The notes below the pieces were generated by a model that did not search any database, was not told where the DNA came from, and saw nothing but the letters and a program-made list of their open reading frames with translations. Below are positions 57,901 through 64,000 of a stretch of DNA of 64,000 nt, one piece after another (position 1 is the stretch's first letter; the number at the start of each line of letters is the position of its first letter). Source of the DNA: Asticcacaulis aquaticus. GTDB taxonomy: Bacteria > Pseudomonadota > Alphaproteobacteria > Caulobacterales > Caulobacteraceae. The translations under genes were made by a program, and so were the position numbers. Where the stretch lies: assembly GCF_028550415.1 (NCBI RefSeq), contig NZ_JAQQKX010000009.1, positions 1 to 64,000 on the forward strand, written 5' to 3'.

Positions 57901-58116
57901 TTAGCCCAACCGCTCGGCGATCCACAGCTTGATGAGCGATTGCCGCGTAACACCCAGACGCTGCGCCTGCCGGTCGAGGCCTTCCACGACCCAAGCCGGA
58001 AAATCGACATTAACCCGGCGCGATTCCAGATTGGGACGCCGTGCCGCCGACCAGTCGATCTGAGCGTCGATGTCGTCACCGTCATCGAATTTTGTGTCGA
58101 ATTCATGCGCCTTCAT
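57901..58116 (-). CDS. brnA: BrnA antitoxin
   Basis: 71 residues. The helical N terminus and the C-terminal ribbon-helix-helix ('RRVNVDFPAWVVEGLDRQAQRLGVTRQSLIKLWIAERL') match the BrnA/CopG-type antitoxin. It overlaps the toxin gene by 14 bases, toxin first, the usual BrnTA order. Such antitoxins repress their own operon. Confidence 0.9.
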   Translation of the reverse strand: MKAHEFDTKFDDGDDIDAQIDWSAARRPNLESRRVNVDFPAWVVEGLDRQAQRLGVTRQSLIKLWIAERLG

Positions 58117-58366
58117 AATAGTTTATCTCCTGTTTGCGGGCGCGCCGCACCGAAATGATCCGAATGACTTCACCGCGCCGTGCGCATACCGCCGACCAGT
58201 GTTTGCCAGTGATTTTCCCAATCACCAGAAACCGTGGCTCGTCACTGGTCAGGGCGGGGGCTTCGACATAGCGCTCATCAAGCCACAAAGCTTGCGCTGC
58301 ATCGAAATCGATACCGTGCTTGATCAGATTGGCCGTGCTCTTGGCCGGATCATATTCGAATGACAT
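58103..58366 (-). CDS. brnT: BrnT toxin
   Basis: 87 residues. 'FEYDPAKSTANLIKHGIDFDAAQALWLD', 'RFLVIGKITGKHWSAVCARRGEVIRIISVRRARKQEINYYE' are the BrnT landmarks (RelE-like ribonuclease, catalytic R-x-I-S-x-R-R/K region). It blocks translation by RNA cleavage until bound by BrnA. Confidence 0.92.
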   Translation of the reverse strand: MSFEYDPAKSTANLIKHGIDFDAAQALWLDERYVEAPALTSDEPRFLVIGKITGKHWSAVCARRGEVIRIISVRRARKQEINYYEGA

Positions 58367-58407
58367 GGGTTATTTTAGCATAAAAACTATACCATTTTCA
58401 ACTCAGG

Positions 58408-60306
58408 TTACCCATGAAAGAAGTCGTATATGCGCTGAGCCAGCGCCTCGTTGATACCCTCGACCTTGCGCAGGTCCTCGATCTGCGCCTTGCCGACCTC
58501 GCGGCCTGAGCCGAACGCGGCCAGCAAAGCCCGCTTCTTGCGCGGGCCGATGCCTTCGATTTCGTCGAGCGGGTTCTTGGTGATCGCCGCGTCGCGCTTT
58601 TGCCGGTTGGCGCCGATGGCGTAGCGGTGGGCCTCGTCGCGCAGGCGTTGCAGATAATAAAGCACCGGCGACTTCGGCTCCATCATGAAGGGCGCGCGTC
58701 CCGGCATGAAAAAACGCTCCATCCCCGCGTCGCGGTCCGGCCCCTTGGCCACACCGACGATCTTTATATCTTCCATGCCCAGCTCGCGCATGACCTCCAG
58801 CACGGCGTCAAGCTGCCCCTGCCCGCCGTCGACCAGCACCAGATCGGGCCGCCCGAAACCCTCTTCGTCGGTGGCGGTATCCGAGCGATTCTTCAACCGC
58901 AGGAACCGGCGGCGAAACACCTCGCGCATCATGGCGTAGTCGTCGCCACTATTGATCTTGTCGAGGTCCTTGATGGTGAACTTGCGGTACTGGCCCTTCA
59001 TGAAGCCGTCAGGCCCGGCCACAACCATGCCGCCGACGGCATGGGTGCCGCCTAGGTGCGAGTTGTCATAGACCTCGATGCGCTCCGGCGGCGCGGGCAG
59101 CTCGAAGATATCCGCCACACCTTTGAGCAGCCGGGTCTGGGCCGAATGCTCGGCCATGCGCCGCCCCAAGGCCGACCTGGCATTATTGAGGGCGTGGGCC
59201 ACGACATCGGCCTTTTCGCCGCGCTTGGGCGTATGGATCTCGACCTTGCGGTCGGCGCGCAGGGATAACGCCTCCATCATCAGGTCGGGCTCCGACAACG
59301 GGTGCGACACGAGGATCAGCTTCGGCACCGGGCGGTCCTGATAGAACTGCCCCAGAAACGCGTCGAGGATTTCGCCCTCACCGCTGTCGGCTTCCTCACC
59401 GCTATCGGGCACGCGCGGGAAATAGGCGCGGTCGCCCCAGTTCTGGCCCGCCCGGTAGAACACCGCCTGGACGCAGGCCGAGCCACCCTCCGAGACCACG
59501 GCGAAGACGTCAGCCTCGGCTTCGCCCAGCCCGATCGAGGACGACATGGTGATATGGTTGAGCGCGCGCACCCGATCGCGCAGGAAAGCGGCCTTTTCGA
59601 AATCCATATCGTCCGAAGCGCGCATCATCTGCTGCGTCAGATCGTCGATAACGACACGCGAGCGGCCCCGGAGGAAGTCCTGCGCCTGCCCGACCAGCCC
59701 GTTATAGTCCTCAAGGCCGATTACCCCGGTGCACGGCGCGGAACAGCGGCGGATCTGGTGCAGCATGCACGGCCGGGTGCGCGCGGCATAGACGCTGTCG
59801 GTGCAGGTCCTCAGCAGAAACGCCCGTTGCAGCGTATCGAGCGTGCGGTTGACCGCCTGAGTCGAGGCGAACGGTCCGTAATATTCGCCCTTGATCGAAT
59901 GGGCACCGCGGTGCTTAGTGATCTGCGCCGCCTCGTGGTCCTTGCGCACCAGAATCTCGGCAAAGGACTTGTCGTCGCGCAAAAGCACATTGTACCGCGG
60001 CTTGAGCGCCTTGATCAGGCGCGCCTCCAAAAGCAGGGCCTCGCCCTCGGTGCGGGTGCGCACAATGACCATCGACCGCGTCAGATAGACCATCCGTGCG
60101 ATGCGCTGGGCGTGCACGCGGCCCTGCGCATATTGCAGGATGCGTTTTTTCAGCGACTTGGCCTTGCCGACATAGAGCACCTCGTCGTTTTCGCCGATCA
60201 TGCGATAGACGCCGGGCTTGTCCTCGGCCAGCCGCGCCTCACGCAGGATCAGGGCCGCGCCGGTCAGTATCGCTTCCGTATCCGGTATGGGCTGGTCTTC
60301 TGTCAA
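58408..60306 (-). CDS. uvrC: UvrABC excinuclease subunit C
   Basis: About 632 residues. GIY-YIG domain ('KPGVYRMIGENDEVLYVGKAKSLKKRI'), UVR motif ('LTQQMMRASDDMDFEKAAFLRDRVRAL'), RNase-H-like endonuclease ('IEVYDNSHLGGTHAVGGMVVAGPDGF', 'PDLVLVDGGQGQLDAVL') and C-terminal helix-hairpin-helix ('LDEIEGIGPRKKRALLAAFGSGREVGKAQIEDLRKVEGINEALAQRIYDFF'). It cuts both sides of lesions in nucleotide excision repair. I prefer TTG at 60306, behind GAGGCCTGACTCG; the frame is open to another TTG at 60369. Confidence 0.95.
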   Translation of the reverse strand: MTEDQPIPDTEAILTGAALILREARLAEDKPGVYRMIGENDEVLYVGKAKSLKKRILQYAQGRVHAQRIARMVYLTRSMVIVRTRTEGEALLLEARLIKALKPRYNVLLRDDKSFAEILVRKDHEAAQITKHRGAHSIKGEYYGPFASTQAVNRTLDTLQRAFLLRTCTDSVYAARTRPCMLHQIRRCSAPCTGVIGLEDYNGLVGQAQDFLRGRSRVVIDDLTQQMMRASDDMDFEKAAFLRDRVRALNHITMSSSIGLGEAEADVFAVVSEGGSACVQAVFYRAGQNWGDRAYFPRVPDSGEEADSGEGEILDAFLGQFYQDRPVPKLILVSHPLSEPDLMMEALSLRADRKVEIHTPKRGEKADVVAHALNNARSALGRRMAEHSAQTRLLKGVADIFELPAPPERIEVYDNSHLGGTHAVGGMVVAGPDGFMKGQYRKFTIKDLDKINSGDDYAMMREVFRRRFLRLKNRSDTATDEEGFGRPDLVLVDGGQGQLDAVLEVMRELGMEDIKIVGVAKGPDRDAGMERFFMPGRAPFMMEPKSPVLYYLQRLRDEAHRYAIGANRQKRDAAITKNPLDEIEGIGPRKKRALLAAFGSGREVGKAQIEDLRKVEGINEALAQRIYDFFHG

Positions 60307-60516
60307 CGAGTCAGGCCTCAATGTACACTTTATGTTCGCATAAATGCCCTTAGCCGTGTCACGATACAAGCCGCCCTACAGTAAAAATTACGCGCCGAGA
60401 GTCATTTCATATTCAAAATATTTCGCACATATAAATTGTAAGTCGCTTTTCCATATGCCATTTAGAGCTGTTTTCCGGCGGTCTGGGTAGATCGCCTGCG
60501 TAGAGGGGGCGGGGGA

Positions 60517-62550
60517 ATGAAATCCAGAACATATTTGCTGGCGACGGCCATGCTGATGGTCGGCGCAAGTTTGTCTGCCTGCGGCGGCGGAGGTGGAGGC
60601 GGTGGCGGTGACGTCTATACGCCTCTGCCATCCCCACCACCGCCTCCACCTCCACCTCCACCTCCACCTCCACCTCCACCTCCACCACCACCTCCTCCTC
60701 CGCCGCCAGCGGGTATCGGTAGCAACGACTGTGCGACCAAACCCGCTGCTATTGCCTGCTTAGGCACGCCTCTGACTCTGACTGGGGCGACGGCCTTCAC
60801 GGTGAACGCCCTGGCATCGGCATTCAAGGCCGATGATCTCAATGCAAACGCGACAATTACGATGACCGCGGGCAGCGCCGGGACAGCCGGCGACGAGACC
60901 TATCGCGTCCTCTATAAGCTCAACGGCCAGACCTACGATTTCGAGGTCGGCGGCGCAGGGGAATCGATCACGGTTTTCGGCTTTCCCACCAAACGCCTGA
61001 GCTGCCTCAACCCGGTCAACTGCCCGGCGACGGTAAACCTTATCTACGCCACTACGTCGGAATCCGGCAGCCTGGATTACGTCCTGCCCTATATGCTGTC
61101 GAACACCATGACGCAGATATATGGGATCGCCGGTCGCGAGACGGGCGTTTTCAGCCCAGCCATGCAGACGGGTACAGCCCTGTATGCCGGGACGGCCTTC
61201 GGTACCTATGGCACGCCGACCAGCGGCGGCACCGCTCAGGGTCGTCTGCGCATGGATGTCAATTTCGGAACCGGCGTTCTGGAAGGCGGCATCGTCGATT
61301 TCGTGACGTCGTCTTCGACGCCGATCGTGCTCGATTTCCTGTTTACGGGGTCGCTGAACAACAGCAATGGCAGGTTCACCGGCTCGGCGCTAGCCCGTCA
61401 GTCGGGCAGCGCGCTGGTCGGCAATGTCTACGGCAGTTTCTATGGTCCTTCCGGGCAAAAGCCGGACGAGGTCGGGCTCAGCTATTACCTGACCTCGGCG
61501 ACCTATCAGCTGACCCTCACGGGCGTTGCCGTCGGCGGAGCTGCCAGCGCAGCGGCACCCCTGCCGCCACCGCCACCGACGGCAACGCCGCCCGTGTCAC
61601 CTCCGCCTCCGCCACCACCACCGCCGTCTCCGCCGCCACCGCCACTGCCTGGCACACCCGTTCCAGGTTCCGACGCTACCTGCGCCAAGTCGAAGTGCCT
61701 GACCGGGAAGACCTATTTCAACGGCCCCTCGACCCTGATTCAGGTGCGCAACGCCAATCCGGGTTCGGCGACGCCTATTGCGGGAACGCGTATCGACAAC
61801 CTCTCAAACATGGTCCACGTCATGATCGATCCGGGCAGCAGCGCCTCGGAATCCGACGACGTCTACAGTGTGCGCTACATGATCGGCGGCAACAGCTATG
61901 AGCGCAATTTCAGCGTTCTGGTGCCGGTGACCAATGTGCTGGGGACGCTGAAAGTTGCGCTTCTGGCCGACGGATCGACCGATAGCTTTTTCCTCGTCGA
62001 CCTCGACTCCGCACTAGCGGGGGCGGCGGACTACGTGCAACTGGCGGCATTCAGTCGCGAAGTCGGCAGCACCGGCGCGGAACTCGGCTTCATAACCTTC
62101 GGTCGCCTGACCGACGCCAAGGACATGCCCACCACCGGCAGCGCTACCTATGTCGGTCAGACTCGCGGCATCTATGTCACCACCACCGGCGAGGTGTTCG
62201 ATACAGCCAGCGCCATCGACATGACGGCAAATTTCGGCACCGGCAAGGTCACCGGCCTGGCCTCGAACTTCAAATTAATGAACGGCAGCGGGAATCTGGT
62301 CACGCGACCGGAAAAGCTCGACTTTCTCTATTCAGCCGACATTAACAGCGGTACGGCAACCTTCAGCGGCACGGCCTTCAGTGCCTTTCCAGGTAGCGCC
62401 GGCGGGCTGGGAATCACCGGTCAGGTCGAGGGCGCGTTCTTCGGCCCGAAGGATAAGCCACCAGCAGCAGCGGGACTGACTTACAAGCTGGGGGTGCCGG
62501 TCACCGGTTCGTTCATGTCTGGCGGCGCGGTGCTGGGTCCCAAGCCTTGA
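60517..62550 (+). CDS. Proline-rich TbpB-like surface lipoprotein, two lobes
   Basis: 677 residues. Lipobox 'ASLSAC' (Cys22) is followed by nine glycines and a run of about 25 prolines (to about residue 64). Lobe 1 (about 66-345) ends in a barrel-like pattern 'RLRMDVNFGTGVLEGGIVDFV ... GRFTGSALARQSGSALVGNVYGSFYGPSGQKPDEVGLSYYL', similar to transferrin-binding-protein B-type barrels. A second proline linker (about 347-382) leads to lobe 2 (about 385-677), which repeats the pattern and ends 'GQVEGAFFGPKDKPPAAAGLTYKL'. Known Slam substrates have this lipid anchor plus TbpB-like barrel. The overlapping downstream Slam gene supports export to the outer leaflet. Ligand unknown. Confidence 0.82.
   Translation: MKSRTYLLATAMLMVGASLSACGGGGGGGGGDVYTPLPSPPPPPPPPPPPPPPPPPPPPPPPPPAGIGSNDCATKPAAIACLGTPLTLTGATAFTVNALASAFKADDLNANATITMTAGSAGTAGDETYRVLYKLNGQTYDFEVGGAGESITVFGFPTKRLSCLNPVNCPATVNLIYATTSESGSLDYVLPYMLSNTMTQIYGIAGRETGVFSPAMQTGTALYAGTAFGTYGTPTSGGTAQGRLRMDVNFGTGVLEGGIVDFVTSSSTPIVLDFLFTGSLNNSNGRFTGSALARQSGSALVGNVYGSFYGPSGQKPDEVGLSYYLTSATYQLTLTGVAVGGAASAAAPLPPPPPTATPPVSPPPPPPPPPSPPPPPLPGTPVPGSDATCAKSKCLTGKTYFNGPSTLIQVRNANPGSATPIAGTRIDNLSNMVHVMIDPGSSASESDDVYSVRYMIGGNSYERNFSVLVPVTNVLGTLKVALLADGSTDSFFLVDLDSALAGAADYVQLAAFSREVGSTGAELGFITFGRLTDAKDMPTTGSATYVGQTRGIYVTTTGEVFDTASAIDMTANFGTGKVTGLASNFKLMNGSGNLVTRPEKLDFLYSADINSGTATFSGTAFSAFPGSAGGLGITGQVEGAFFGPKDKPPAAAGLTYKLGVPVTGSFMSGGAVLGPKP
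60643..60684 (+). repeat. Hexanucleotide tandem repeat (CCTCCA)x7 in the lipoprotein gene
   Basis: Seven perfect copies of CCTCCA followed by degenerate CCA/CCT/CCG codons encode the first proline linker. As the unit is six bases, gain or loss of copies would lengthen or shorten the linker without a frameshift. Confidence 0.85.
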
Positions 62551-63872
62551 GGTCAGAATATTTCGGCATTGCGCTCGCCTTGGTGGCGGGCGTAGCGGCC
62601 ATACCGGTCGAGGCACAGACAACACAGACCTCGTCGGCGGTCGCGTCTGCCGACGAAAAGGCTTTTGCCGACGAACTGATGCGGCGGTTGCGGGCAAACG
62701 ACTATGCCGGTGCGCTCGACTGGCTCGATGCGCGCCCCGATATCGCCGCCCGGCCAGAAGGTCAGAAGCTTCGCATTCAGTTGTTGATGTTTCTCGACCG
62801 CGACCGTGAAGCTCAGGCCTTAAGCGAAGCCTATCTGTCGGTGCACCCGGACGACGCCACGGCCCGCTTTCAACTCGGCGAAATCCATTTTCGCGCCCGC
62901 CAGGATCAGCCCGCGGCCTTCGCCTACCGGTTGGCTGTCGCGGGCGATCTCGACGAAACCCGGCGTCAGGCGGCATTGGCGCGGCTGACGCAGATCGACG
63001 GGCGCAAACGGTGGCGGTTCTGGGTCGGCGGCTCGGTCGCACCAGACTCCAATCTCAACTCCGCGACCGATGCCACGCGTGTCGACCTGTTCGGCCTGCC
63101 CTTCGCCCTGAGCGACGATGCTCGCCGGCGCAGCGGCGTATCGGTCAATGCCTTTGGCGGCGTCGATCGCACCGTGCAACTGTCGCCCACCCTTGCCGTG
63201 CGTCTGAGCGCCATCGGAAGCCTGACCGACGTGCCGGGTGAGGAGTCAGATCTTCAATACCTATCCCTGCGCGCCGGTCCGCAATGGCGACTGGGCCCCA
63301 CAACCACGGTGTCGGTTCAGGTCAAACAGAGTCGCCGCTGGTACGGCGGCGCCGTTTGGGAAGATGCTCAGGGCTTCGGCCTGGAAGGCGACACTTACGG
63401 CAATAACACCCGCTGGACCGGAGCGTTCAACGCCGAAGGTATCGATGCTAAGGTTAATCCCGCACGCAACGGTCGCCTGTTCAGTATCGAAGGGGCCCGT
63501 ACGCGGTATCTCGGCACCTCGTCTCTTTGGCGGCTGGGTGCCGTTGCCGTCCGACGCGAGGCCGAATCGTCGACGGAAGCCTACACGCAGGGGCACATCA
63601 GTCTCGGACGCCTGTTTCAGGGTCCGCATGCGACGTTCATCTACGCCGAGGCATCGACCGGCCTGCGTCGCTATGACGTCGCAGCCATCGCCTTCGGCAC
63701 GCGGCGCGAAGATCGCGAAGCCTCGCTCGAATTGCGCCTATCTAAGCGCGACTGGTTTATCTGGGGCGCGCATCCGTTCGTGTCGATGTCCACGTCGCGC
63801 AATCGGTCCACCATCAACATCTATACCTACGACCGGACGCGTATGGAGTTCGGTTTCACACGCGAATTTTAG
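62547..63872 (+). CDS. Slam-type surface lipoprotein assembly modifier (DUF560)
   Basis: 441 residues. A signal peptide ('YFGIALALVAGVAAIPVEAQ'), TPR-like helices (about 38-148: 'DYAGALDWLDARPDIA', 'YLSVHPDDATARFQLGEIHFRARQDQPAAFAYRLAV') and a C-terminal beta barrel (about 152-441) starting 'FWVGGSVAPDSNLNSATDATRVDLFGLPFALSDDARRRSGVSVNAFGGVDRTV' and ending in Phe ('TRMEFGFTREF') fit the Slam family, outer-membrane translocators that place lipoproteins on the cell surface. The TTG start lies on the lipoprotein's stop (TTGA), so the two are coupled. Confidence 0.85.
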   Translation: MRSEYFGIALALVAGVAAIPVEAQTTQTSSAVASADEKAFADELMRRLRANDYAGALDWLDARPDIAARPEGQKLRIQLLMFLDRDREAQALSEAYLSVHPDDATARFQLGEIHFRARQDQPAAFAYRLAVAGDLDETRRQAALARLTQIDGRKRWRFWVGGSVAPDSNLNSATDATRVDLFGLPFALSDDARRRSGVSVNAFGGVDRTVQLSPTLAVRLSAIGSLTDVPGEESDLQYLSLRAGPQWRLGPTTTVSVQVKQSRRWYGGAVWEDAQGFGLEGDTYGNNTRWTGAFNAEGIDAKVNPARNGRLFSIEGARTRYLGTSSLWRLGAVAVRREAESSTEAYTQGHISLGRLFQGPHATFIYAEASTGLRRYDVAAIAFGTRREDREASLELRLSKRDWFIWGAHPFVSMSTSRNRSTINIYTYDRTRMEFGFTREF

Positions 63873-64000
63873 CCACGGCTCGTTCGTAATATTTGCCCGT
63901 AATATTGGGTTGTCACAATTTTGTTGGCCCACGGCCACGAATGACCTGCACAGAGCCAGCATCCAGTCGATATAGTGGCTGGGCGACCGTCTTTACCGGC
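63873..64000. other. Right-edge intergenic sequence
   Basis: After the Slam stop I see two near-identical GTAATATT blocks (63886 and 63899) and no gene, terminator or promoter I can support in these 128 bases. Confidence 0.4.

Follow-up and report, generated by a model that had tools for sequence, protein, structure and literature searches.

The Slam proteins of type XI secretion systems (T11SS) follow a common plan, i.e., a periplasmic TPR domain and then a 14-stranded barrel. Here, we describe a putative Slam protein and its candidate cargo, a surface lipoprotein (SLP), encoded in the first 64,000 nucleotides of contig NZ_JAQQKX010000009.1 of Asticcacaulis aquaticus (Caulobacteraceae), hereafter called the window. 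According to PMC9090332, Slam1 is a translocon and is helped by Skp. The seven T11SS proteins that had been experimentally verified before PMC12282271 all belong to the animal-associated cluster 1. Slam/T11SS proteins have also been reported from environmental alphaproteobacteria (PMC8406197, subcluster 1C; PMC12282271), and multi-barrel cargo with proline-rich N-termini is in print as the T11SS "Sphingomonas surface proteins" (18 lipoproteins and 12 soluble proteins; PMC12282271). Given these reports, the pair is less surprising than an initial reading of the letters by a model (the sequence-only reading) had held. We consider it likely that the two genes form a dedicated T11SS surface-display unit for a single cargo.

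With regard to the second gene of the pair, the sequence-only reading had proposed a Slam-type translocator and had named the DUF560/SlipAM profile beforehand as the test of this claim. The profile (PF04575) matches with 53.4 bits at a cut-off of 22 and over its full length (1-288). It finds nothing in 14 control genomes and one protein in this genome. At an E-value of 0.001, the genome holds one SlipAM match and one TbpB_B_D protein, and these are the two members of the pair. The AlphaFold2 model (mean confidence score, pLDDT, 78.7; like the SLP model it was computed from an alignment of six sequences) reproduces the Slam plan, with helices first and the 14 strands thereafter. Ranked by E-value, its best Foldseek matches include two TPR-barrel exporters, BcsC and PelB, as well as the porin OmpG. 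The Slam ORF begins with a TTG; a later start would truncate the signal peptide. The TTGA overlap with the cargo gene, from which a dedicated pair had been proposed, is confirmed; it is also seen at loci L024 and L037 and, by coordinates and TTG start, at L042, and the adjacency of both genes is conserved in relatives.

For the cargo, both open reading frames (ORFs) are found where they had been placed, and the layout of lipobox, glycine run, polyproline, lobe, polyproline and second lobe is confirmed by sequence, Pfam and AlphaFold2 (Table 1). The lipobox assignment follows the established rule. PF01298 (TbpB_B_D) scores 40.1 bits for the whole protein (cut-off 26) in two stretches, for which the genome search gives 27.7 bits in the N-lobe, above the cut-off, and 23.3 bits in the C-lobe, below it. 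An HpuA match is weak, and otherwise Pfam reports nothing beyond barrel families. A phmmer search of SLP and Slam against solved structures returned only low-complexity, TPR-like or chance matches, so that a comparison of folds was needed. Here, the 32 highest Foldseek matches of the SLP model are all TbpB or LbpB chains (best E-value 7.7e-14). The C-lobe aligns with the NmTbpB C-lobe at Z 17.0 (root-mean-square deviation, rmsd, 3.6 over 208 residues in the residue-level alignment), and residues 87-341 align with 3hoe at Z 13.6 (rmsd 4.3, 177 residues). The latter structure is titled "Surface Lipoprotein", and we take it as the TbpB N-lobe of A. pleuropneumoniae. The N-lobe barrel furthermore aligns with the fHbp barrel at Z 14.7 (rmsd 2.3, 120 residues). 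That is, an unrelated fold, which the sequence-only reading had named as a refutation of its TbpB-like lobes, is not what the predicted model shows. Both lobes look like handle-plus-barrel units, and the models support a likeness to TbpB in fold only, with nothing pointing to transferrin.

Several results weigh against these assignments. The Pfam family TPR_Slam (PF24575) is not reported for this Slam, and the best general TPR family, with an E-value of 0.0032, misses its own cut-off. The whole-chain overlay of the Slam model on BcsC is poor (TM-score 0.32), and the TM-score to PelB is low as well. The SLP model has a mean pLDDT of 61.2, and its whole-chain TM-score to TbpB is about 0.24 of the query with rmsd 24, such that the predicted model does not fix the relative placing of the lobes. 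Finally, the NCBIfam equivalog model slam_lipo (NF041636) scores SLP with 58.8 bits (E-value 7.2e-16) and thus misses its cut-off of 80 bits. Since none of eight related cargos reaches this cut-off either, we regard SLP as a distant relative of that model and not as a member.

Based on family membership, export of SLP by the Slam is well supported, and we judge surface display of SLP by this Slam to be very probable. Following the work on Neisseria Slam1, SLP would cross the inner membrane via Sec, be lipidated and reach the outer membrane; it would be kept unfolded until its passage to the outer leaflet via the Slam barrel. An Asp after the lipidated Cys is a Lol-avoidance signal. No Asp follows Cys22, hence SLP carries no such signal. 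Judged by conservation, the glycine run and the proline rods could act as tether and spacer, i.e., as a stalk that may lift the lobes off the surface. The proline-rich stretches vary in length among relatives. Most codons of the 25-proline run belong to 11.3 tandem copies of the 6-bp unit CCACCT (60634-60701), such that slippage would add or remove two prolines and leave the frame intact; the length of the spacer may be tuned. Alternatively, SLP could be exported by the Slam but released, by loss of the anchor or cleavage of the cargo, and act as a secreted binding protein. T11SS-1B cargo is soluble (PMC8406197), but all eight cargos of the window clade have a lipobox-like motif with Cys, and we consider release highly improbable.

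Table 1. Features of the pair and its insert (positions in the window unless marked as contig positions)
Feature	Position	Strand	Details and basis
SLP gene (surface lipoprotein), 677 aa	60517..62550	+	ORF list, profiles, predicted structure
Lipobox LSAC, lipidated Cys22 predicted	60571..60582	+	sequence
Glycine run, nine residues (Gly 23-31), directly after Cys22	60583..60609	+	sequence
Run of 25 uninterrupted prolines (residues 40-64)	60634..60708	+	sequence
N-lobe, residues about 66-340 (about 275 aa)	60712..61536	+	predicted handle and barrel; TbpB_B_D match at residues 218-323
Proline-rich linker separating the lobes, residues about 348-378	61558..61650	+	sequence
C-lobe, residues 389-677 (289 aa)	61681..62547	+	predicted handle and barrel; better conserved than the N-lobe
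Slam gene (SlipAM/DUF560, T11SS outer-membrane protein), 441 aa	62547..63872	+	signal peptide, then a TPR-like domain of helices (about 37-152) and a barrel of 14 strands (157-440)
TTGA overlap (SLP stop and Slam TTG start)	62547..62550	+	sequence
Insert, part inside the window	60372..64000		whole insert 4.2 kb, ending at contig position 64550; not present at this site in congeners
TPR-repeat gene in the insert, beyond the window	contig 63993-64538 (minus strand)		
39-nt direct repeat, one mismatch, flanking the TPR-repeat gene	63909..63947 and contig 64578-64616		

We also compared the pair with its relatives. SlipAM matches occur in 19 of 149 genomes of the family (16 over the cut-off), and TbpB_B_D matches in 29 of 385 genomes of a class sample (23 over the cut-off). 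The SLP profile matches 15/25 genus genomes at an E-value of 0.001, the window included, and only three of them over the whole protein; the partial matches do not exceed 36 bits and are confined to profile positions 1-105, for the most part to the Gly/Pro stretch. In a sample of the order, the C-lobe profile matches 17/398 genomes, four of these over most of its length with E-values below 1e-100. For the trees, we used seven pairs, i.e., those of the window, congener G109, three Caulobacter loci (two in Root655), L044 (titled Hyphomonadaceae bacterium) and L045 (titled Pseudaquidulcibacter), together with six outgroup rows. The congener G137 was omitted. Its cargo of 656 aa is intact, and the Slam ORF next to it (L025:6924-8259, minus strand) is broken into three reading frames, reflecting either decay or an assembly error. 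The seven pairs form one clade in both trees (support 100/100 for Slam, 100/99 for the C-lobe). Pairwise identities had raised the idea of partner swapping, since the window cargo is nearer to L044/L045 and the window Slam nearer to Caulobacter. We dropped it, as both best trees place the window pair with L044/L045, at modest support (85/87 and 64/46); the alternative topology, in which two Caulobacter rows join window and G109, is not rejected (p-AU 0.09 and 0.19).

Within this clade, the two lobes of the cargo differ in conservation. Compared to the window, the C-lobe is 53% identical in G137 (N-lobe 38%), 41% in Root655 (32%) and 47 and 46% in L044 and L045 (40 and 40%), while the gap is small for G109 (83% vs. 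79%, Slam 68%). The cargos of L044 and L045 share the proline-lobe-proline-lobe plan of the window, the larger Root655 cargo lacks the second proline run, and the cargos of AP07 and of the second Root655 locus have one barrel. At the uvrB-side Caulobacter site, the Slams of Root655 and AP07 are 92% identical and the C-lobes 59%; there, the Root655 cargo has both lobes and the AP07 cargo (336-342 aa, start unsure) has lipobox, Gly, Pro and C-lobe only, i.e., no N-lobe. Slam and C-lobe thus look like a conserved core. The pattern fits a division in which the C-lobe would be recognised by the Slam and the N-lobe would serve as a fast-changing effector, as has been proposed for TbpB-like cargo (PMC12282271).

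Cargos outside the window clade have one to three barrels, and some of them deserve mention. In other genera of the family, two Slam cargos (L036:1315-2604, minus strand; L033:3804-6203, plus strand) carry a Peptidase_S74 domain (chaperone of endosialidase, an intramolecular chaperone) fused directly after the TbpB barrel. The words S74 and endosialidase are absent from the main text of PMC12282271, and an S74-fused Slam cargo was not found in the open-licence literature. In another genus of the order, a 938-aa three-barrel cargo ORF with a poly-proline run adjoins a Slam gene (L124:5255-8068, minus strand). At L131:4910-12523, a Slam gene lies amid three cargo-like ORFs, two with Pro-Thr repeats; in the third, of 1312 aa, the only recognised part is a C-terminal barrel, found by a custom profile and not by Pfam. 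In the Caulobacter genus group, a protein of 1694 aa that contains RTX repeats and 13 cadherin stretches (L039:315-5396, plus strand) is encoded less than 1 kb from a gene that SlipAM matches in part (34.7 bits, profile 87-245).

The same site in congeners indicates how the pair may have arrived. In the nearest congener, G029 (UvrC 94% identical), the match to the window runs to 60371, is followed by 25 bases and resumes at 64551. In this genome, uvrC and the gene beyond the insert are direct neighbours. In G089, G109, G042 and G099, about 240 bases without alignment separate the same flanks, and in G137, the sixth congener examined, 1.5 kb; there, too, the pair is absent from this site. G109 carries its pair at a site of its own. 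At that site, the flanks lie only about 300 (G099) and 230 bases (G089) apart; G042 and G104 are also without the pair and lack more of the right flank, i.e., the pair is absent from all four genomes examined. The pair of G137 adjoins the conjugation genes trbB and trbE on a 570-kb contig. Pairs thus occur in 3 of 25 genus genomes and at three different places. Given two separate sites with pair-less relatives and a third copy beside trbB/trbE, horizontal gain is the most economical interpretation, with repeated loss as the alternative. The G+C of the two window ORFs (0.63 and 0.63 vs. 0.61-0.64 in the flanks) gives no sign of foreign origin.

Between 60250-60520 and 64380-64680, the insertion ends show no direct or inverted match of at least 9 bases, and we therefore propose no mechanism of movement. 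The TPR-repeat gene of the insert has matches in 23/25 genus genomes, outside this genome at only 23-36% identity, and thus lacks a close homologue in the 24 congeners searched. The first part of the 39-nt motif is present once in the empty-site stretch. Carriage of the clade on plasmids was considered and rejected, since no copy of it was found in 72,556 plasmid records (no match for SLP; 16 distant records for Slam, each below 60% identity). On the other side of uvrC, the window encodes a BrnT toxin (57901-58366, minus strand; PF04365, 84.5 bits), followed by a small ORF in the antitoxin position, and DNA of this region (about 57907-58408) is also absent from G029.

The patchy presence could also mean that the pair is a decaying or inert remnant of a mobile element, to which the broken Slam ORF next to the intact cargo of G137 would lend some weight. 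In the window, both ORFs are intact with G+C equal to the flanks, and the G109 pair is unbroken at the C-lobe and Slam identities given above. These observations suggest selection, and we rate decay as quite improbable.

If the pair was gained, it seems to have been inserted alone, without an import receptor, as a portable cassette. The sequence-only reading had seen no TonB-dependent receptor nearby, which holds beyond 64 kb: the genome has 59 PF00593 receptor barrels, and the sole one on this contig lies at 119,592, about 56 kb off. Linkage to a TbpA-type receptor, one of the marks of TbpB, is thus not found at the window pair. Upstream, the pair is preceded by the divergent uvrC; the window is followed by the TPR-repeat gene, an acyltransferase and then genes that look housekeeping-like by eye. 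No receptor was found in the locus DNA searched at six of the eight window-clade loci, by blastp with three receptors and, for the window, by the contig data above. As the pair was apparently acquired without a TonB receptor, its gene content makes a self-sufficient surface binder the most likely role, not half of an uptake system. We regard self-sufficiency as an evenly balanced proposition; the binder would serve adhesion or the capture of an environmental polymer or ligand.

On the other hand, the lobes may capture nutrients in trans, i.e., bind heme, a metal complex or an oligosaccharide and pass it to a TonB receptor encoded elsewhere. This is modelled on TbpB, HpuA and hemophilins, which use linked receptors, and we treat it as a serious if tentative candidate. 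Receptor linkage is common at Slam loci (120 of 185 clusters; PMC5449769). Two observations speak for such a helper and against self-sufficiency. Any of the 59 receptors of the genome could serve in trans, and a receptor does adjoin the pair at L044 and L045, on the other strand, and the pair there comes after genes for an alpha-amylase (PF00128, 115 bits at each locus) and an MFS transporter. These neighbours may be a lead to alpha-glucans, or they may reflect shared inheritance alone; transporter and amylase are 93-94% identical between both loci, the receptors only about 53%.

Besides the six receptor-less loci, two further findings argue against capture in trans. In contrast to the window clade, six Caulobacter genomes with a different Slam locus carry TonB, Slam, HphA-like cargo and receptor side by side (domains identified in L026, homologues in all six). 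Furthermore, allowing up to 3 mismatches, the window contains no Fur-type box, and allowing up to 4, none lies upstream of the pair either here or in five relatives; in L044, there is a single site with 4 mismatches. Iron control of the pair was dropped, given no Fur-type box near it. As for LexA control, exact GTTCN7GTTC sites in the window number 2 vs. 1.9 expected by chance, and the window pair has one 1-mismatch site vs. 0.15 expected per 200 bases. The SLP gene is divergent from a DNA-repair gene at three sites (window 60369-60517, uvrC; L046:5796-5953, uvrB; L024:4004-4192, TIGR03916/TIGR03915), possibly by chance. An exact GTTCN7GTTC box lies upstream of the L024 repair gene beside the pair.

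Going beyond the self-sufficient binder, one may picture a mobile, self-contained display cassette of environmental alphaproteobacteria, in which a constant module of Slam and C-lobe is combined with exchangeable or length-variable N-lobes and proline spacers. We consider this broader picture speculative and rather doubtful. If true, the cassette would enter a genome without a receptor gene and its host would instantly display a binding protein; it would thus be the display counterpart of adhesin or phase-variable surface cassettes. The clade also offers natural experiments, i.e., a Caulobacter site at which two strains carry near-identical Slams but a one-lobed cargo in one and a two-lobed cargo in the other, and a pair that has a different location in each of three congeners. 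Comparisons within the clade would show which part of the cargo is read by the Slam and whether a receptor-less pair is of use on its own, and this in harmless environmental bacteria.

The open-licence literature yielded no Slam study of Caulobacteraceae, and neither the Caulobacterales clade, the double proline spacer, the receptor-less empty-site evidence nor the one-lobe vs. two-lobe pair was found in it. The words Caulobacter and polyproline are absent from the main text of PMC12282271. Among the known systems, the Sphingomonas surface proteins share with SLP several TbpB barrels, a proline-rich N-terminus, an alphaproteobacterial host and a gene near a Slam/T11SS protein (PMC12282271). 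Compared by description only, they differ in having N-terminal Pro-Thr repeats, while the window SLP has a 25-proline run and a second proline-rich spacer between its lobes. TbpB/LbpB with Slam1 of Neisseria and Pasteurellaceae are likewise two-lobed handle-plus-barrel lipoproteins delivered by a Slam, as predicted for the window pair from genes and models. Unlike them, the window pair has no linked receptor gene and its lobes are joined by a proline-rich linker. HrpABC/hemophilin-type T11SS-1B loci also combine a Slam with a TbpB-barrel cargo and occur in the same family, i.e., in the six Caulobacter genomes, but they carry a one-barrel HphA-type cargo, TonB and a TonB receptor. BcsC and PelB export polysaccharides. 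In overall plan, i.e., a periplasmic TPR domain plus an outer-membrane barrel, they resemble the Slam, while sequence identity is about 10% and TM-scores are low. Altogether, the export machinery is of a known type, and what seems new is its stand-alone, receptor-less insertion together with a fast-changing binding part.

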